The position numbers and the translations under genes were made by a program. The notes under the pieces are model-generated. The model did no database searches, was not told the DNA's origin, and was given only the letters and a program-made list of their open reading frames with translations. Of a DNA stretch of 49,260 nucleotides, positions 2,675 through 18,863 are shown one piece after another. Source of the DNA: Clostridia bacterium (GTDB taxonomy: Bacteria > Bacillota > Peptococcia > DRI-13 > UBA5745); assembly GCA_018436095.1 (NCBI GenBank), contig JAHDMJ010000005.1, forward strand, positions 140,400-189,659, given 5' to 3'. The first letter of the stretch is position 1. Every line of letters starts with the position of its first letter.

Positions 2675-4246
2675 TTACCAACTCCAGTTATAAATTTCCG
2701 GGAAGTTAGGATAATTCACTACTTTTAAATCTTTATTCCAAACATAGGTTTGAACTTTGTTAATACAGGGGAAACAAGTGGCCGTATCCATAAACATATC
2801 GTTGTACTCTTTATAAATTTCAGTCCTTTTTGCAGCATCCATTTCCACCGCGCCGGCTTCAAGGAGAGCATCAAGTTTTGCTCCGTCAAATTGCTTGTCA
2901 TTATACACCACATAGGTAGCCCCTTTTTGAGAGCTATGCCAGCGGGTATACATATAGCTATAATCACCATAATATGACCAGCCATAAGTAGCTATATCAT
3001 AGTTCTGTGACCTTAAGTTAGGGGAAACCGAAGCTTGTTCGATCATTTGCAAATCACATTTGATGCCAATTTCATTTAATGATGTATGGAGAACTTGGGC
3101 CATTTTCTCATAGTAACCGCCAGTCCAGGACATAATTGCTCCAACATCAACGCCATCAGGATATCCCGCTTCAGCCAATAATTCTTTGGCTTTTTCCGGA
3201 TTGTAATCATATATTATGCCTAAATCAAAATCTGAAGAGGTATTTTGGACAGGCACCATATAATCCGTAATGACGGCAAGACCGTTAAAACCGACTATAT
3301 TCATGGCTTCCTTATCAATTGCATGGCCAATCGCTTTACGTACTAAAGGGTTGTTTAATGCCGGATTAGCATCAGGATTGACGACAAAAACGGAAATGTG
3401 ATTGGCAGGTACAATTTCTGTTTTGTATTTTTCTGTGTTAGCAACTAAGTCATCCCAGTTAGCAACCGGGGCAATATACCAATCTAATTCACCTGCTTCA
3501 AAAGCAACCAGGCCAGCGGAAGCATCGGAAATAGGCTTAAACCTTATGGTCTTTATATCTGCTGCCCCACGATAATAGTCTTCGAAAGCCTCAAGGGTCC
3601 AGCCATTAGCATGATCCACATGGGACCAATAATAGGGACCTGTTCCAGCCAAGGCTACCTTAGTGCCAAACTCTGCCCCTTGCTCTTCCACAATCTTTTC
3701 GTTAAGAATATAAACACCGCACATATCAGTCATAAATGCAGCCATAGGGGCTTTTAGTTTAATTTCAATAGTGCTGCCATCAATTTCCGTGACCGAATCC
3801 ACATTTGCCACCCTAGAGGCGACAGAGGGGTGCTCCCCCGCTCTTTTGAATGAATAAATTATGTCTGATGGTTTTACGGGCTCACCGTTATGAAACTTAG
3901 CATTTTCATTAAGTTTAAATAAATAAGTTTTACCATCCTCACTAATTTCATAACTGGAGGCTATCCTGGGTTCGAATTCTCCCGTTAATTCGTTTTGATA
4001 GTATAGGCCTTCGTAAGTCTGCCTAAAAGCATACATATCCGCAATCTTTTCCGAAAAATGGGGATCAATGGATGTTAAAACAGTGGTTACGGAAAGGTTT
4101 AAGTCTTCTCTTTTAGGAGCTGTGGGAGTATCAGTTGATACCGGATCCTTTGGTGCAGCAGTTGGCTGCTGCACCCCACTTGAGCCGCAACCTGATAAGA
4201 GCGATACCAGTAAAGCAATAACCAGGAATATTGACATCTTTCTCAT
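2675..4246 (-). CDS. Extracellular solute-binding protein family 5 (peptide/nickel), lipoprotein
   Basis: Membrane-anchored binding protein of the ABC importer. The signal peptide ends in a lipobox (LLSGC) with the lipidated Cys about 20 residues from the start, followed by a Thr/Pro-rich linker (QQPTAAPKDPVSTDTPTAP). The SBP_bac_5 core follows, with recognisable pieces such as the EPRIASSYEISEDG and FHNGEPVKPSDIIYSFKRA segments. The ATG at 4246 is preferred because GGAAGG sits 6 bases before it; a longer reading from 4276 adds ten charged residues ahead of a good signal peptide. First gene of the operon; ligand (peptide, nickel chelate or other) cannot be read from sequence. Confidence 0.93.
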   Translation of the reverse strand: MRKMSIFLVIALLVSLLSGCGSSGVQQPTAAPKDPVSTDTPTAPKREDLNLSVTTVLTSIDPHFSEKIADMYAFRQTYEGLYYQNELTGEFEPRIASSYEISEDGKTYLFKLNENAKFHNGEPVKPSDIIYSFKRAGEHPSVASRVANVDSVTEIDGSTIEIKLKAPMAAFMTDMCGVYILNEKIVEEQGAEFGTKVALAGTGPYYWSHVDHANGWTLEAFEDYYRGAADIKTIRFKPISDASAGLVAFEAGELDWYIAPVANWDDLVANTEKYKTEIVPANHISVFVVNPDANPALNNPLVRKAIGHAIDKEAMNIVGFNGLAVITDYMVPVQNTSSDFDLGIIYDYNPEKAKELLAEAGYPDGVDVGAIMSWTGGYYEKMAQVLHTSLNEIGIKCDLQMIEQASVSPNLRSQNYDIATYGWSYYGDYSYMYTRWHSSQKGATYVVYNDKQFDGAKLDALLEAGAVEMDAAKRTEIYKEYNDMFMDTATCFPCINKVQTYVWNKDLKVVNYPNFPEIYNWSW

Positions 4247-4317
4247 TAATATCCTTCCTCTCTTCACCCTTCTCATAATGACACCTTTTATGATTGCATA
4301 CTCCTATTGGCAATGTT

Positions 4318-4346
4318 ATAATATCAAATATATTCAGAATTCACAA
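4318..4346 (-). promoter_or_regulatory. Sigma-A-type promoter of the peptide/nickel ABC operon
   Basis: On the minus strand TTGTGA (4346-4341) and TATTAT (4323-4318) are separated by exactly 17 bases, about 70 bases before the binding-protein start. The spacer contains repeated GAAT units (GAATTCTGAAT), a possible operator for the divergent regulator. No -24/-12 sigma-54 promoter was seen in this intergenic region. Confidence 0.5.
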
Positions 4347-4440
4347 TTATATTATCCCTTTTATGGTTAACTCCTCTCTATTTTAGTTTGTTTTTCTCTC
4401 ATTATGAAAATATATTATCATTTTGAAAGGATGCGCTGCT

Positions 4441-6165
4441 ATGACTTTACTTACAAAGATTCAAGGTTATTGCCAAGAGGCTATTGAAAAATTCTCCTCT
4501 GCATATAATCTTAATATTGAAATTATTGATAACGAATTGAGATATATTGGGGCTGTAGGCAGATATTTTAATCGAATCAATGATTTAATTCCTTCAATTG
4601 GAGGACGCTTAACCATAAAGGTATTGAGCATGAAAAAAGAAATTTATGTGGACGACCCCCAAAACCACCCCATATGTTCAGAGTGTTACAACCTGGCTAA
4701 TTGCATAGACCGGGTAGAAATATGCTATCCGATAATTTATAACGATATTTCTTTAGGAGTAATATCTATCGCCTCTGCTAACTTTGAGCAAGCAGAAATG
4801 ATCAAAAACAATCGTGAAACTTTTATGTTATCTGTTTCTTTACTAGCTAGTACTATACAAGAACATGCGGGAAATTATGATCTGCAGGAAGAACTGGCAA
4901 AAGGTACAGAAATCAATAGTTTATGTCTTAACGCAATTCCTGAGGGGGCTATCGTTTTTAAAAACAACAGCAATATAATCCAAATGAATTCCCACAGCGA
5001 AAAAACCCTTGGCTATACCATGGCCCAAATCCCCTACTTAGAAAAAATTAACCAAATCAAAGTTAGCTTTCAGAAATCCTCCGATAGCTTTGATGAATGC
5101 CAAGTAAAAATAAGAGGCAAAGAAATAGTCTTAAGAGGACGACTTTTAGCTTCAAATAAAGATGAAGGCTGCTTTGCCAGCCTATTTGTCTTCGGCGATA
5201 TTTGTGTATCTAAAGATTTTCATTGCTCCTTTAATCAACCCATCCCTTTTACTTTTGCATCGCTAATTGGCAAAAGTCCGGCTTTTTTACTTGCCTTGGA
5301 AGAAAGTAAAAAGCAAGCATTTTCCAATACTTGCTTTTTGCTGTGGGGGGAAGTGGGGGTAGGAAAAGAAAGGCTTGCCAGAACTATTCACACTGAAAGC
5401 ACCAGGAGGGAGCAAAACTTCATTAAGATTGCAAGAAATAATGATTTTATTGATTTGTTTCAGGAACTATTTAACTATGCCAAACCAGAAGATAAAAAGA
5501 GTACGTCATTGTTAAATAATGATATGTTAGAAGGGAGCACCATTTATATTGATGAAGTCGGTTCTTTAGACCAATATAACCAAGAAAAATTGCTGTCTCT
5601 GCTCAGCAATGCTAATTATTTTAACTTCAAGATAATTCTATCTTCTACTTGCGATCTTAAAAGTTTAGTAAACAGGGGTGAGTTTATTAGAGATTTATAT
5701 CATGCTCTGGAACTAAACTCTGTTTATTTACCTCCCCTTAGGCAAAGAGGCGAGGACATAATTCTGCTTGCTCAACATTACTTAAAAAAATACAATCTTT
5801 TCCATAAGAAGAATTTATATTTTTCCAGAAATATAATTGACGCTTTATTAAAGTACAGCTGGCGAGGCAATATTATAGAGCTGGAAAATGCTATTGGCTT
5901 TACCGTACAAGCTCATGATGATGTAGGTGATGAAATTACCTTAGACAATATACCAGATAATTTAAAAAAGCGTTTATGGGAAGGGAATCAAAACTCCTTC
6001 AATTTAGAAAACAGTGAAAAAGAAATGATCATCAAGGCTTTAAATGAGTTGGGGGGCTCAGGTAAATCCATGAAGCTAGTAGCTGAAAAATTAGGAATAA
6101 GCATATCCACATTATACAGGAAATTAAAATACTACAATATTTCCTCTGATAGCAGTTATATTTGA
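4441..6165 (+). CDS. PocR/PAS/AAA+ transcriptional regulator with Fis-type HTH (sigma-54-activator-like, lacking GAFTGA)
   Basis: Probable regulator of the divergent ABC operon. The ATG at 4441 has GAAAGG ten bases upstream; a TTG at 4423 is in frame but lies upstream of that site. Residue order: a PocR-like sensory domain (about 8-140) with a Cys cluster (CSECYNLANC, then EICYP), a PAS-like region (about 160-255), an AAA+ domain (about 272-500) with Walker A GEVGVGKE and Walker B IYIDEV, and a C-terminal Fis-type helix-turn-helix (KLVAEKLGISISTLYRKLK). The GAFTGA loop that contacts sigma-54 is absent: the position reads ELFNYAKPEDKK. The sensor-II region reads WRGNIIELEN instead of the usual W-GN-RELEN. 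This suggests a regulator working without sigma-54, as in TyrR (inference). Confidence 0.85.
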   Translation: MTLLTKIQGYCQEAIEKFSSAYNLNIEIIDNELRYIGAVGRYFNRINDLIPSIGGRLTIKVLSMKKEIYVDDPQNHPICSECYNLANCIDRVEICYPIIYNDISLGVISIASANFEQAEMIKNNRETFMLSVSLLASTIQEHAGNYDLQEELAKGTEINSLCLNAIPEGAIVFKNNSNIIQMNSHSEKTLGYTMAQIPYLEKINQIKVSFQKSSDSFDECQVKIRGKEIVLRGRLLASNKDEGCFASLFVFGDICVSKDFHCSFNQPIPFTFASLIGKSPAFLLALEESKKQAFSNTCFLLWGEVGVGKERLARTIHTESTRREQNFIKIARNNDFIDLFQELFNYAKPEDKKSTSLLNNDMLEGSTIYIDEVGSLDQYNQEKLLSLLSNANYFNFKIILSSTCDLKSLVNRGEFIRDLYHALELNSVYLPPLRQRGEDIILLAQHYLKKYNLFHKKNLYFSRNIIDALLKYSWRGNIIELENAIGFTVQAHDDVGDEITLDNIPDNLKKRLWEGNQNSFNLENSEKEMIIKALNELGGSGKSMKLVAEKLGISISTLYRKLKYYNISSDSSYI

Positions 6166-14036: not shown

Positions 14037-15545
14037 TTACTCTTTAATCATATGCAAAGAGCTTTTGTGAGGGGTATCCAAAGCGTTGGCCATTTTGCTC
14101 TGGGTTTGCTCCCGGGCTACCAGGGTAGCCGTCTTTCTTGAGGGCTGCAAGGTGCCGGCGCCGGCGGCACAGCCGCCGGGGCAGGCCATGCCTTCCAAAA
14201 GATAGCCGTCATATTTGCCGGCCTTAGCCAGATTCAGCATCTTTTTGCATTCCCTTAAACCTTCGGCGGAAGCGATCCTAATCTCTCTTTCAGGGGCCAG
14301 GCGCTCAATAACCTCAGCCACGGCCTTGGCCACGCCGCCGCTGACGGCAAAGCCCTTACCGGCGGCGGTAGCTTCGCTGACAGCAGGCTCCTCCGCCATC
14401 TGCTCCGGATTGATGCCCTTGGCTTCAAACAATCCCATAATCTCCTCAAAAGTAAGAACGAAGTCCACGTTGCTGCGGACGCTGCGGCGGCTGGCCTCCA
14501 ATTTCTTGGCAGAACAGGGGCCGATAAAAACAATTTTGCATTCGGGGCATTTTTGCTTTTGCAAACGGGCCGTCAGCACCATAGGAGTAAGGGCCATGCT
14601 GATGCAGTGAGCCATCTCGGGGTACTCGGTCTTGGCCATTACCGACCAAGCCGGGCAGCAGGAAGTACCCATAAAAGCCTGTTTGTCCGGCACTTCCTCC
14701 AAGAAGTCCTTGGCTTCTTCAATGGAGCAAAGATCAGCCCCCACCGCCACCTCGAAAACGTCTTTGATGCCTAATTCCTTTAAGGCCGTCACCAGCTTGC
14801 CGTAGGTCACCTTCGGTCCAAACTGGCCCACAAAAGCGGGGGCCAATATGGCAATTACCGGTGCGCTGCCTTTTATGGCGTGGATTAGCTGAAAAATCTG
14901 GCCCTTATCGGAAATGGCGCCAAAGGGGCAGTTGACGATACACATGCCGCAGGATACGCATTTGCTGTAATCAATGGCGGCCTTGCCGTTTTCGTCGCTG
15001 CCGATGGCGTCCACGCCGCAGGCCTCGGCGCAGGGCCGTTCCAGCTTCAGTATGGCGCTGTAGGGACAAACGGAGCGGCAGCGGCCGCATTTGATGCAGC
15101 GGTCCTGGTCAATGACGGATTTGCGGTTTTCGCCGATAGCGATGGCGTCTACGGGGCAAGCCTCTATGCAGGGATGGGCCAAACAGCCCTGGCAGCCGTT
15201 GGAGACAAAGTATTTCTCCGGACAGGCATTGCAGGCAAACTTAATAATATTCACCAGAGGAGGATCGTAATATTTCTCCGCAATAGCGCTGGCGTCAATA
15301 TTCATGGAAAGAGGGGCGTGCTCGTCAACAGGACGCAAGGGCAGCCCAATGGCCAAACGCAGCCGCTCGCCGACAATGGCCCGCTCCAGAAAAATCGATT
15401 CCCGGTACTTTGCCACCTCTCCCGGCACAATCCGGTAAGGCAGCTCCTCGATGCGGGAATAGTCGCCGCCTTCAAAAGCCATCCGGGCCACTTCCGTAAA
15501 TACTTTCCGGCGGATTTCTCCCACCTGTGATTCTACAATACGCAT
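14037..15545 (-). CDS. [FeFe]-hydrogenase, monomeric, group B-like
   Basis: Iron-only hydrogenase of 502 residues, presumably cytoplasmic and ferredoxin-linked. The N-terminal 90 residues precede a Cys-rich region (105-206) with CNACPEK, CIEACP, CIKCGRCRSVC and CVSCGMCIVNC clusters, indicating several [4Fe-4S] centres. The H-cluster domain (about 225-465) has all four cluster ligands: Cys297 in TSCCPAW with proton-relay-type Cys296 before it, Cys344 in IGPCSAKKLE, and Cys455/Cys459 in MACPGGC. The IGPC form of the second motif, rather than MPC, points to group B (knowledge-based inference). It has its own terminator and is separated by a hairpin from the ABC importer upstream. No maturation genes (hydEFG) are in the window. 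Confidence 0.93.
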   Translation of the reverse strand: MRIVESQVGEIRRKVFTEVARMAFEGGDYSRIEELPYRIVPGEVAKYRESIFLERAIVGERLRLAIGLPLRPVDEHAPLSMNIDASAIAEKYYDPPLVNIIKFACNACPEKYFVSNGCQGCLAHPCIEACPVDAIAIGENRKSVIDQDRCIKCGRCRSVCPYSAILKLERPCAEACGVDAIGSDENGKAAIDYSKCVSCGMCIVNCPFGAISDKGQIFQLIHAIKGSAPVIAILAPAFVGQFGPKVTYGKLVTALKELGIKDVFEVAVGADLCSIEEAKDFLEEVPDKQAFMGTSCCPAWSVMAKTEYPEMAHCISMALTPMVLTARLQKQKCPECKIVFIGPCSAKKLEASRRSVRSNVDFVLTFEEIMGLFEAKGINPEQMAEEPAVSEATAAGKGFAVSGGVAKAVAEVIERLAPEREIRIASAEGLRECKKMLNLAKAGKYDGYLLEGMACPGGCAAGAGTLQPSRKTATLVAREQTQSKMANALDTPHKSSLHMIKE

Positions 15546-15622: not shown

Positions 15623-15677
15623 CCTGAGACAGCAAAAACCCGGAAAAGCTTGGGCAGCTCTCCCGGGCTGTCTGAGG
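15623..15677 (-). terminator. Nested hairpin between the ABC binding-protein gene and the hydrogenase gene
   Basis: An inner stem CCGGG/CCCGG followed on the minus strand by TTTTT has the form of an intrinsic terminator. Outside it the arms CCTGAGACAGC (15623-15633) and GCTGTCTGAGG (15667-15677) pair with one mismatch and enclose the inner stem and its T-run, so a longer competing stem is possible. Confidence 0.6.
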
Positions 15678-15695: not shown

Positions 15696-16709
15696 TTATT
15701 CTACTTTCAGGATCAGTCCTTCAATATCCACCGGATTTTCGATCATATCATTGTCCTGCATGAATTGTTCCGTCTTTTTCATTGACGCAATATCGGCAGC
15801 CGTTATTTCCGTGTCAAAATCATACATGGGGAACATTTCCTCAACTGCCTCAATGCTCAATTCCGTTTCCTTAGCGGTAATTTCCAGAATTTCTTCCGGA
15901 TTATCCTGCATATATTGCCGGATTTCGTCCTGGGCTTTCAGGAAGGCCTTGACCAGCAGAGGATTTTTCTCATAAAAGGCCTGACTGGTGGCTACTACGA
16001 TGGTGGCGTCCACCAAGTCCTGGCCTGTCGTCACCACCGAATAACCGTCTTTGGCCATATTATAAGCTACGGGTCCCGCCAATAAAGCGCAGTCCACGGC
16101 GCCGCCGGCCAAAGCAGCCTGAGCCTCGGGGATACCCATGGAAACAAACTCCACGTCATTTTCCGTCAGACCCGCCGTACCCAAATAAGCAATCAACAGC
16201 TCATGGAGAATTGTCCCTTTAGGTCCGGCAATCTTTTTGCCGGCCAAATCGGCGGCGCTTTCAATAGAGCTATCCTTGCCGGCAAAGAGGCGAAAGGCTT
16301 CGGGAGAACGGCTGTAGGTGCTGATAATCTTAATATCCGCACCATTGGAAGCAGACAAAATAACTGAAGTAGCTCCTACCGCATAAAGGAATTGAATGTC
16401 GCCGGAAGCCAGAGCCTGAGTCTGCTCAGGTCCCGCAGTCAAATTGGAATATTCCACAGGCAGGCCGTATTCTTCAAAAACCCCGGCGAAAATCCCTTTT
16501 TCCTTTTCAATGATCGAAGGAACATTGAGAGGAGATTTTACATAGGTTACGCCGATTTTATTTACGGTGAATTCCGGCGCCGCCTCAGGTTCCGTTGAGG
16601 CAGGAGGGGTGGTTGCCGGCGGTTCTCCGGCTTGGGCTCCATTGCCGCAGCCGGCTAATATACCGCTTACCATTACCAGGGTAAGAAAAAGAGAGAGAAT
16701 ACGTTTCAT
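15696..16709 (-). CDS. ABC transporter substrate-binding protein, NMT1/TauA/SsuA type, lipoprotein
   Basis: Binding lipoprotein, 337 residues. Signal peptide with lipobox ILAGC (Cys at 21), a Pro/Thr/Glu linker, then an NMT1-like periplasmic-binding fold: GVTYVKSPLNVPSIIEKEKG, LTAGPEQTQALASGDIQFLYA, IAGPKGTILHELLIAYL and EAQAALAGGAVDCALLAGP match the sulfonate/nitrate/thiamine-precursor binding branch. The start has GGAGTG 5 bases upstream. It is the last gene of the four-gene transporter operon. The ligand is unknown; this family covers sulfonates, hydroxymethylpyrimidines, bicarbonate and aromatic acids. Confidence 0.92.
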   Translation of the reverse strand: MKRILSLFLTLVMVSGILAGCGNGAQAGEPPATTPPASTEPEAAPEFTVNKIGVTYVKSPLNVPSIIEKEKGIFAGVFEEYGLPVEYSNLTAGPEQTQALASGDIQFLYAVGATSVILSASNGADIKIISTYSRSPEAFRLFAGKDSSIESAADLAGKKIAGPKGTILHELLIAYLGTAGLTENDVEFVSMGIPEAQAALAGGAVDCALLAGPVAYNMAKDGYSVVTTGQDLVDATIVVATSQAFYEKNPLLVKAFLKAQDEIRQYMQDNPEEILEITAKETELSIEAVEEMFPMYDFDTEITAADIASMKKTEQFMQDNDMIENPVDIEGLILKVE

Positions 16710-16720
16710 ATGACACTCCT

Positions 16721-17443
16721 TTACTTTATTGTTGTAATAATATCCTTCTTCATCCCGATGAGCTCGGAAGACAGAATATCTCGAGGATAGGCGAAATTCT
16801 CCAGGGAGAACTGCCGCTGGATTTTGCCCTGGTCCAGCACCAGGATTTTTTGTCCCAAAAGCAAGGCTTCGTCAATGCTATGGGTGACAAATACAATGGT
16901 TTTCTTACGCAGGGTAAAGATGCGCAACAGCTCCTCCTGCATAGCCTCCCGGGTGAAATGGTCCAAAGCCGCAAAGGGTTCGTCCATTAAAATCAAGTCG
17001 GGATCATAAGCCAGGGCCCGGGCTAAAGCTACCCTTTGCTGCATGCCGCCGGAAAGCTGGGCAGGATAGGCTTTTTCAAAGCCCGCAAGCCCCACAGCAT
17101 CAATCAATTCCTGAATCGCCGGCGGGGAAAACCGGTTTTTGGGCACGCCGAAGGTGATATTCTTCCATACCGTCAGCCAAGGCATCAGCCGGGGTTCCTG
17201 AAAAACCATACCGGTTTTGTGGGGGGGAGGGGCCCCTAAAGTACCCTTCTCGTATGCTTCGAAGCCTCCCAATATCCGCAAAAGGGTGGTTTTGCCGCAG
17301 CCGCTGCGGCCCAGGATAACGGTGATGCTTTCTCCCGGAAACTCTGCCGTCAGCCCATCCAGTACGGTCAGATGCTTTTCTGCCACCCGGTAGCTTTTAT
17401 AGAGATTTTCCAGCTTAACTCCAGCTATCGTCAACACCTCCAT
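16721..17443 (-). CDS. ABC transporter ATP-binding protein, SsuB/TauB type
   Basis: ATPase of the NMT1-type importer, about 240 residues. Motifs: Walker [11 protein letters not shown]-loop [13 protein letters not shown], signature [15 protein letters not shown], Walker [14 protein letters not shown]-loop [10 protein letters not shown]. The 'EPRLMPW' form after the Q is typical of the nitrate/sulfonate/taurine branch. The ORF extends upstream to 17482, but the ATG at 17443 ([18 protein letters not shown]) fits the family N-terminus and has GGAAA upstream. It overlaps the permease gene end by 29 bases. Confidence 0.93.
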
Positions 17444-18173
17444 GAAGGGATTTCCGAATGGCAAAAGAAAATAACAAGTCACATAAATAGCCCACGATGC
17501 CGATAACGAAAATACCCACTACAACTTTGTCCGACCGGGACATTTGCTGGGCGTCCAGAATCAGATAGCCCAAACCGCTGGCAGCCGCAATCATTTCCGC
17601 ACCAATAATAGCCCGCCAGCTATAGCCCAGGCCAATGCGCATACCTACCAAAATATCCGGCAGAGCGTAGGGCAGCATGATACGGAAAAACTTCTGGCTT
17701 TTGGTAAAGCCCATGGAATGGCCTACTTCCAGCAGCTTAATATCGCAGGAGGCCAAGCCTTTTTTAATATTAAGAAACATCGGGAAAAAAGAGGCCAGCA
17801 CAATAATAATGATTTTAGAGGTTTCCCCAATACCAAACCATAAAATAAGCAGAGCAATCAGACTTAAGGGCGGCACATTGCGCAGAAACTCCACGATATG
17901 CTTATAGTAAGCGCCGCCGGCAGGGTATAGTCCAGCCAATACACCAAGAAGGAAGGCCAGAGAAAAGGCAATGGTAAAACCGGTAAGCACCCGCCAAAGG
18001 CTGACCAAAACATGCCGGAGCAATACACCGCTTTGCACCATACTCCAAAAAGAATGGAAAACCCGGGCCGGGCCGGGCAGCACATAAGCACTCCATATAC
18101 CCGTAGCCGACGCCGCCAGCCACAGCAGCAAAATCAGGGCAATGGGCAGAAATCCTTTCCAAAAGTTTTTCAT
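17415..18173 (-). CDS. ABC transporter permease, SsuC/TauC type
   Basis: Inner-membrane permease, about 252 residues with six helices. Typical elements are [14 protein letters not shown] near the N-terminus and the EAA loop ([39 protein letters not shown] region). The frame is open upstream to 18545, but that part is out-of-frame overlap with the preceding gene; the ATG at 18173 ([18 protein letters not shown]) starts directly in the first helix and follows the stop of the upstream gene by 8 bases. Confidence 0.92.
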
Positions 18174-18180
18174 GCTTTTT

Positions 18181-18792
18181 TTACACCCCATTTCCCTTGT
18201 GGCAGCCCTGAGGGCAATACAGCAGCTCCAGGATGCTTTCGGCAGGCTGCCGGGGACCGGCTGAAAAATATTCGTCAATCTTTTCTTTGCTGTCCAGCAT
18301 AATACCCCGGGCCCCATATTCCGCAAAAAAACCTGGCGGGATAGGGCTTGCCTGCAATGGGGCTTTCTGCAGCAGCAACTCTTCTTGCCGGACGAACTCT
18401 GCCCAGGTAAGGAAAGTAACTCCCGGCAAACCAAGGCTTCTGCCCAGGTCGCGCAAGGCCTCGCAAGGTGTGGTGACATATAACCGCCCTTTGCCCTCCA
18501 GTCTTTGCTGCAGCTCTCTGGCACAATGCAGTAAGATCGGCTCAATAGCCGGGTATTCCAGAAAGGGCGGGTTATACTCCGCCTTAATATAGTCCACGGC
18601 CAAAGGGCAGCGCATATCGGCCAGGCAACCTTCAGCCTTTTTAAGGGCCAAACGGTATTTTTCGCGCACCGCAGCTATATGGTCCCGGCCACAGGCCACA
18701 ACCTCAAAGCCCCTCCGCTCAAGCTGCTGCCGCAGCTCCGGCGAATCATACATTTCTGCAGCAACAGGATTAATCCAAAGAAACTTGTCCAT
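18181..18792 (-). CDS. Miniature [FeFe]-hydrogenase H-cluster-domain-like protein
   Basis: About 203 residues. Aligned by eye to the hydrogenase encoded 2.6 kb downstream, it keeps the H-cluster skeleton in order: MRCPLAVDYIKAEY (Cys62, matching TSCCPAW...KTEYP), YVTTPCEALRDLGRSL (Cys110, matching FIGPCSAKKLEASRRS) followed by VTFLTWAEF (matching VDFVLTFEE), PPGFFAEYGARG (matching GKGFAVSGGVAKA), and ELLYCPQGCHKGNG (Cys193/Cys197, matching GMACPGGCAAGAG). All four cluster-ligand cysteines are present, but the adjacent proton-transfer Cys is Arg61, and there are no ferredoxin domains. The domain is far shorter than a working hydrogenase, so a sensor, scaffold or non-hydrogenase enzyme is more likely (inference). 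First gene of the ABC operon. The ATG at 18792 has AGAGG 5 bases upstream; ATG 18795 and GTG 18810 are alternatives. Confidence 0.75.
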   Translation of the reverse strand: MDKFLWINPVAAEMYDSPELRQQLERRGFEVVACGRDHIAAVREKYRLALKKAEGCLADMRCPLAVDYIKAEYNPPFLEYPAIEPILLHCARELQQRLEGKGRLYVTTPCEALRDLGRSLGLPGVTFLTWAEFVRQEELLLQKAPLQASPIPPGFFAEYGARGIMLDSKEKIDEYFSAGPRQPAESILELLYCPQGCHKGNGV

Positions 18793-18814
18793 CATTGCCT
18801 CTGCTTTCACGGTA

Positions 18815-18830
18815 GTTAGTTACAACTAAC
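18815..18830. promoter_or_regulatory. Palindromic operator over the transcription start of the mini-H-cluster/ABC operon
   Basis: GTTAGTT and AACTAAC are perfect 7-bp arms around a 2-base centre. It begins 4 bases downstream of the -10 box and covers the expected start point, an ideal repressor position. The cognate repressor is not encoded next to the operon. Confidence 0.65.
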
Positions 18831-18834
18831 CGTC

Positions 18835-18863
18835 ATTATACCTGCATTCGCACCTGCTGTCAA
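18835..18863 (-). promoter_or_regulatory. Perfect consensus sigma-A promoter of the mini-H-cluster/ABC operon
   Basis: TTGACA (18863-18858), 17-base spacer, TATAAT (18840-18835) on the minus strand. Such a strong promoter normally needs tight control, consistent with the palindrome immediately downstream. Confidence 0.85.

Follow-up and report, generated by a model that had tools for sequence, protein, structure and literature searches.

What role does a miniature homologue of the H-cluster domain of [FeFe]-hydrogenases play as the first gene product of an importer operon? This question is raised by a 49,260-nt stretch of the genome of a Clostridia bacterium (contig JAHDMJ010000005.1; hereafter referred to as the window), in which a gene encoding 203 amino acids (18184..18792, minus strand; stop codon 18181-18183), here called the mini protein, precedes the genes of an ATP-binding cassette (ABC) transporter of the SsuABC/TauABC type. 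As a tentative answer, held with reservation, we suggest that an H-cluster domain lost its [2Fe] subsite and was repurposed as the ligand-processing [4Fe-4S] enzyme of an NMT1/SsuA-type importer, constituting an uncharacterised iron-acquisition pathway across Clostridia that likely includes Clostridioides difficile. The mini gene is a genuine open reading frame, its best start codon (ATG, 18792) being preceded by AGAGG. Within a set of close relatives, the ratio of nonsynonymous to synonymous substitution rates (dN/dS) of about 0.08-0.18 corresponds to purifying selection and thereby indicates that the gene is in use.

The relationship to hydrogenases emerged on the level of profiles. For the window protein alone, no PF02906 (Fe_hyd_lg_C) match was obtained at E<=1, the sole Pfam match being weak and unrelated, and a phmmer search against the PDB returned nothing. 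A BLASTP comparison with the full hydrogenase encoded nearby was confined to the C-terminal CPxGC motif (E 0.020); as pairwise comparison thus reached motif level only, profiles were needed to show homology. Marasmitruncus massiliensis provided the first relative (63% identity), and further ones came from searches of prokaryote genomes, with the window protein sharing 30-64% identity with its family. Of the 7 sequences in the first family alignment, six matched PF02906 at E<=1 (best 7.2e-12), and three orthologues, with neighbouring stretches, exceeded the cut-off of this profile (G230, 45.2 bits; G1127, 36.6 bits; G972, 32.1 bits). Profiles built from 2-3 mini sequences retrieved full-length H-cluster proteins as next matches (31/31 of the checked secondary matches), the nearest sequence relatives being putative sensory group C/D [FeFe]-hydrogenases. 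Alignment of the mini family with 14 H-cluster domains using hhalign resulted in 98.0% probability and an E-value of 2.7e-13, and placed all four cluster-ligand cysteines opposite their hydrogenase counterparts.

An AlphaFold model built from 20 orthologues, with no hydrogenase in the input, reached a predicted local distance difference test score (pLDDT) of 87.8 and a predicted template modelling score (pTM) of 0.85; an earlier model from 3 sequences (pLDDT 68.7) had given no meaningful PDB match. In a Foldseek search with the 20-orthologue model, ranks 1-10 were all [FeFe]-hydrogenases, and the 50 structure matches listed were [FeFe]-hydrogenases or the hydrogenase subunit of CO2 reductase. 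Since the Foldseek E-values are modest (best 3e-3), the assignment relies mainly on Z-scores, on coverage, and on consistency with the sequence-based results: VIA-align superposed 193-195 of 204 residues on TmHydA and CpI with a Z-score of about 12 (12.1) and a root-mean-square deviation of 3.5-3.6. Judged from profiles and the predicted fold, the mini protein is a compact H-cluster-domain homologue, descended from the catalytic domain of an [FeFe]-hydrogenase. A sequence-only reading of the window had drawn this alignment by eye and is borne out, on the profile side by the orthologues and on the structural side by the comparison with CpI and TmHydA. Its remark that the protein is devoid of electron-relay clusters also holds, as no ferredoxin-type, PAS, or C-terminal cluster domains were detected within the 203 residues.

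The same reading had listed Cys62, Cys110, Cys193, and Cys197 as kept cluster ligands (Cys63, Cys111, Cys194, and Cys198 in the 204-residue numbering). These four cubane-ligand cysteines are invariant in 20/20 orthologues, in register with the hydrogenases, and are the sole invariant cysteines of the family; alignment with hydrogenase structures suggests that they lie close together in space. Every second-sphere [2Fe] residue examined in the 20 sequences differs from hydrogenases. Mapping positions through the hhalign alignment and naming them by what we take to be the CpI residue numbers, the proton-transfer cysteine C299 is replaced by Arg throughout, extending to the whole family what had been noticed in the window protein. 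The position of K358, a Lys retained in nearly all of the 14 full H-cluster domains, is occupied by Leu (19) or Phe (1), that of M353 by Cys, Thr, Ala, or Ser, that of M497 by Leu (12) or Phe (8), that of S232 by Val (19) or Ile (1), and that of A230 by Asn in all 20 members. Further invariant residues of the mini proteins comprise Asp, Arg, Trp, and an SPxPxG motif, with Arg61 and Asp59 (203-residue numbering) among them.

A true miniature hydrogenase or H2 sensor carrying a complete H-cluster would account for the conserved fold and the four cysteines, and HydF as well as full hydrogenases occur in most of the genomes. Moreover, C299, M353, and M497 also vary in sensory hydrogenases (PMC10055695, PMC8163306), and their loss alone would leave [2Fe] possible. 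Residues forming hydrogen bonds to the [2Fe] cofactor are conserved even among sensory enzymes, and in CpI, a prototypical enzyme, the M497L exchange results in [2Fe] not being properly integrated (PMC10055695), which is to be compared with Leu or Phe at this position in the mini proteins. Adding the lost K358, which is Leu or Phe in 20/20 members, and the bulky, charged Arg in place of C299, [2Fe] binding appears unlikely from these alignments. We regard a complete H-cluster in the mini protein as highly improbable, and the hydrogen-sensing role that had been put forward for it as a possibility is not supported, in view of the changed second-sphere residues and the lack of a signalling domain. 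Because the residues of the [2Fe] pocket are replaced throughout the family, a lone [4Fe-4S] protein appears likelier than either a hydrogenase or an H2 sensor; fold and conservation point to a [4Fe-4S] cluster on the four invariant cysteines without a [2Fe] subsite as the most likely state.

Within the window operon, the mini gene is followed in close packing on the minus strand by genes encoding an SsuC/TauC-type ABC permease (17415..18173; 252 amino acids, start taken from the L010 orthologue; PF00528, 1e-24), an SsuB/TauB-type ABC ATPase whose gene overlaps that of the permease (16721..17482; PF00005, 1.3e-26), and a substrate-binding lipoprotein (SBP) of the SsuA/NMT1 type (15696..16709; lipobox LAGC; PF09084, 3.3e-23; TIGR01728). 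This order is maintained on one strand in 19/20 loci including the window, mostly with overlaps or short gaps, so that the linkage to an SsuABC-type importer anticipated by the sequence-only reading extends over many genera. Pairwise distances of the mini proteins correlate with those of the transporter proteins (r 0.97-0.98). The exception is L056, a family member at 3974-4624 with no transporter nearby, flanked by rRNA genes; its contig measures 7.8 kb and has 23S rRNA at both ends.

Such a nearly one-to-one linkage and co-evolution, together with the putative sensory group C/D proteins being the closest sequence relatives, would also fit a cytosolic Fe-S sensor of iron or redox state that, depending on its cluster state, tunes uptake by binding to the importer or to a regulator. 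The mini protein has no signalling or DNA-binding domain, its invariant Asp, Arg, Trp, and SPxPxG suggest ligand binding or catalysis beyond mere cluster holding, and the L056 member has no importer nearby to gate; we therefore consider this sensor or gate function unlikely.

The distribution of the family is patchy. It was found in 16/394 genomes of one order (one of the 16 being a fragment), in 5/391 genomes of a class sample, in 1/394 genomes of the order of Marasmitruncus, and in 2/398 genomes of the sample from the window's phylum, the window's own genome included, where the other matches were full H-cluster proteins. Plasmids and viral contigs that were searched contained no relative of the mini protein. 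Two loci carry a fifth gene of about 178 codons directly 3' of the SBP gene (L055, 926-1459, minus strand; L107, 7767-8312, plus strand); the two products are 43% identical, show no Pfam match, and may hold a clue to the substrate.

A second line of evidence, missed by the sequence-only reading, is the apparent regulation by iron starvation, which reframes the function of the operon. Upstream regions of the orthologous loci show TGATAATGATAATCATTA-like sequences. Scanning the 20 loci with the 19-bp Fur consensus within 100 bp of the start, with p-values obtained by shuffling, revealed Fur-box-like sites in 16/20, having 14-17 of 19 matches at positions -33 to -95. The shuffle p was <=0.003 in eight divergent loci and 0.000-0.037 in eight closely related loci, which are not mutually independent. 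No such site was found in the window, L010, L106, or L056. In the window, a sigma-70 promoter (18835..18863, minus strand; TTGACA, 17-nt spacer, TATAAT, 12/12 match) is followed immediately after its -10 box by a palindrome, GTTAGTTGTAACTAAC (18815..18830, minus strand), a putative iron-responsive repressor site. Its pattern GTTAGYnnnnRCTAAC is common to the window, L010, and L106, with exact matches in the upstream regions of the latter two. In the 1.23 of 3.7 Mb of the window's genome covered by the scan, it occurs 7 times (the window and 6 further sites) compared with 0.11 expected, and 29 control palindromes with permuted arms averaged 0.38 occurrences (maximum 3). Two of the further sites precede a nitrogenase-like operon comprising a NifH-like and two Oxidored_nitro genes (L111, 12241-15558, contig 4 of G000), and two precede genes for a DUF3793 protein and a flavodoxin (L125, 11848-13020, same contig). 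One of the remaining sites lies beside a hemerythrin-DUF438 gene and one in a repeat-rich stretch. Flavodoxin is a classic low-iron gene. The window operator is thus a probable iron-responsive repressor site as far as its sequence context tells, and its regulator may be of the Fur or DtxR type.

Several observations accompany these sites. The nitrogenase-like operon has a good promoter upstream and an ABC ATPase gene about 2 kb beyond it, and the arrangement in L125 suggests DUF3793 to be part of the low-iron response. A flavodoxin gene (L104, 3603-4028) located about 250 bp upstream of a mini operon fits an iron-starvation gene group. The near-palindrome GTTCGCnnnnGCTAAC recurs in L112, L118, L127, L128, L136, and L156 of G000 and is apparently part of an interspersed repeat.

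An experimental counterpart is available from C. difficile. There, CD630_29890-29920 consist of ssuA2, ssuB2, ssuC2, and a gene annotated as "uncharacterized protein, iron hydrogenase-like" (PMC6311696), and by annotation they resemble the window operon in genes and order; this is apparently the same operon. Under iron limitation its RNA increased by log2 +2.6 to +3.5 and the CD630_29920 protein by +1.07; in a fur mutant the corresponding changes were +4.4 to +6.1 and +5.83 (PMC6311696). In the same data the true hydA falls (PMC6311696), an opposite behaviour that speaks against a miniature hydrogenase. The authors regarded the operon as reflecting the co-regulation of sulfur and iron; CD630_29920 was left uncharacterised beside a sulfonate transporter, and the family, its conserved residues, and a Fur box were not described (PMC6311696). 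The earlier statement that no characterised system of this form was known must consequently be qualified, as the counterpart is listed in iron-response data, yet it is right in that the protein itself was not characterised. New here are the Fur-box-like sites in 16/20 loci and the second palindrome common to the window and two relatives.

The sulfur connection leads to a further explanation, in which the importer takes up a sulfonate or other sulfur compound that is then reduced or desulfurated with the participation of the [4Fe-4S] protein, feeding the repair of Fe-S clusters when iron is scarce. The window SBP scores 171.2 bits against TIGR01728 (SsuA_fam; cut-off 163.5) and the SBPs of five other loci likewise exceed this threshold, i.e., every locus tested. 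Fe-S-dependent desulfidases exist, and the link of the operon to sulfur as well as iron metabolism is also made by the C. difficile authors (PMC6311696). The SBPs remain far below the more specific models (window SBP: PRK11553, 75.6 vs. 299 bits; taurine model TIGR01729, 69.2 vs. 304.25 bits), Fur control is not typical of sulfur limitation, and CD2989-2991 were reported, as unpublished data, to go up and not down with cysteine (PMC5767170). An organosulfur route hence seems rather doubtful to us. Known riboswitches were not found in the loci, which accordingly give no thiamine, flavin, or cobalamin hint on the ligand.

Returning to iron acquisition, we envisage an uptake operon for iron starvation whose Fe-S protein processes, and perhaps reduces, the imported ligand, a proposal that we advance with caution. 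When iron is scarce, a repressor of the Fur or DtxR type would dissociate from the promoter, derepressing the operon, a step supported by the data above. The cell would then produce the membrane-anchored SsuA-type SBP, permease, and ATPase along with the cytosolic mini protein, and the importer, on the basis of its family, may bring in a small ligand. Holding one [4Fe-4S] cluster on the four cysteines and no [2Fe], the mini protein would offer a former [2Fe] cavity re-lined by invariant residues, Arg61 and Asp59 among them, and by bulky ones. This pocket might bind the imported ligand or its product beside the cluster, which would donate electrons. We infer in this scheme the identity of the ligand, the [4Fe-4S] content, and the reductive step. 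FhuF-type ferric siderophore reductases are Fur-controlled cytosolic Fe-S proteins that carry a [2Fe-2S] cluster and serve imported ferric complexes. The most economical version of the mechanism would be FhuF-like, the ligand being an iron complex that the cluster reduces under release of iron. A broad ligand-processing role in iron supply is a possibility that we favour hesitantly; the exact reductive step is more speculative still.

A number of points weigh against this proposal. The SBP family is of the sulfonate and not the siderophore type and by itself implies no iron import. The window promoter is without a Fur box (10/19 matches) and carries a different palindrome instead. The C. difficile authors saw no Fur box and considered the effect indirect (PMC6311696), and the orthology of CD630_29920 is taken from annotation and gene order. 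FhuF is an unrelated family, absent from the profile matches of the window protein and the first family members at E<=1. Finally, HydF is present in 6/7 genomes tested, so that maturation genes provide no case against [2Fe] insertion. As an argument against [2Fe], HydF absence was dropped, G1127 having full hydrogenases without it; this single-contig genome (L058) carries full [FeFe]-hydrogenase genes and no HydF above the NCBIfam cut-off.

The operon ends at an intrinsic terminator (15637..15669, minus strand; 14 pairs, T tail). Beyond it lies the full group B [FeFe]-hydrogenase (14037..15545, minus strand; TIGR04105, 615.3 bits vs. a cut-off of 450). The sequence-only reading had placed this gene just downstream; it forms a separate unit past the terminator, and no hydrogenase gene was seen adjoining the operon at other loci. 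It was consequently discarded as an operon partner.

Comparison with known systems places the mini protein among several relatives and analogues. It shares the H-cluster-domain fold and four cubane cysteines with the sensory group C/D [FeFe]-hydrogenases (TmHydS, TamHydS), which differ by their length (about 450-700 amino acids in our matches), N-terminal ferredoxin-type clusters, C-terminal domains, and [2Fe] binding, whereas the mini protein corresponds to the core domain only. By description it is also similar to Nar1/NARFL, a eukaryotic hydrogenase-like Fe-S assembly protein with a [4Fe-4S] cluster and a hydrogenase-derived fold without the [2Fe] subsite; Nar1/NARFL differs in having an extra N-terminal cluster site, a role in cytosolic Fe-S assembly, and no link to a transporter. 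FhuF would be its analogue in the proposed role. SsuABC/TauABC sulfonate importers are the family of all three transporter subunits, from which the window system is set apart by its additional Fe-S protein, iron-type regulation, and an SBP below the sulfonate- and taurine-specific cut-offs. Operons labelled "sulfonate transporter", including one of the iron-induced C. difficile transport operons, appear to represent a distinct iron-linked system, and this gene set may in fact serve iron supply. If true, this would add a new use of the H-cluster fold and a new way in which anaerobes acquire iron (or sulfur in connection with iron), with the mini family supplying a defined set of invariant residues and illustrating an H-cluster domain apparently freed from [2Fe] binding.

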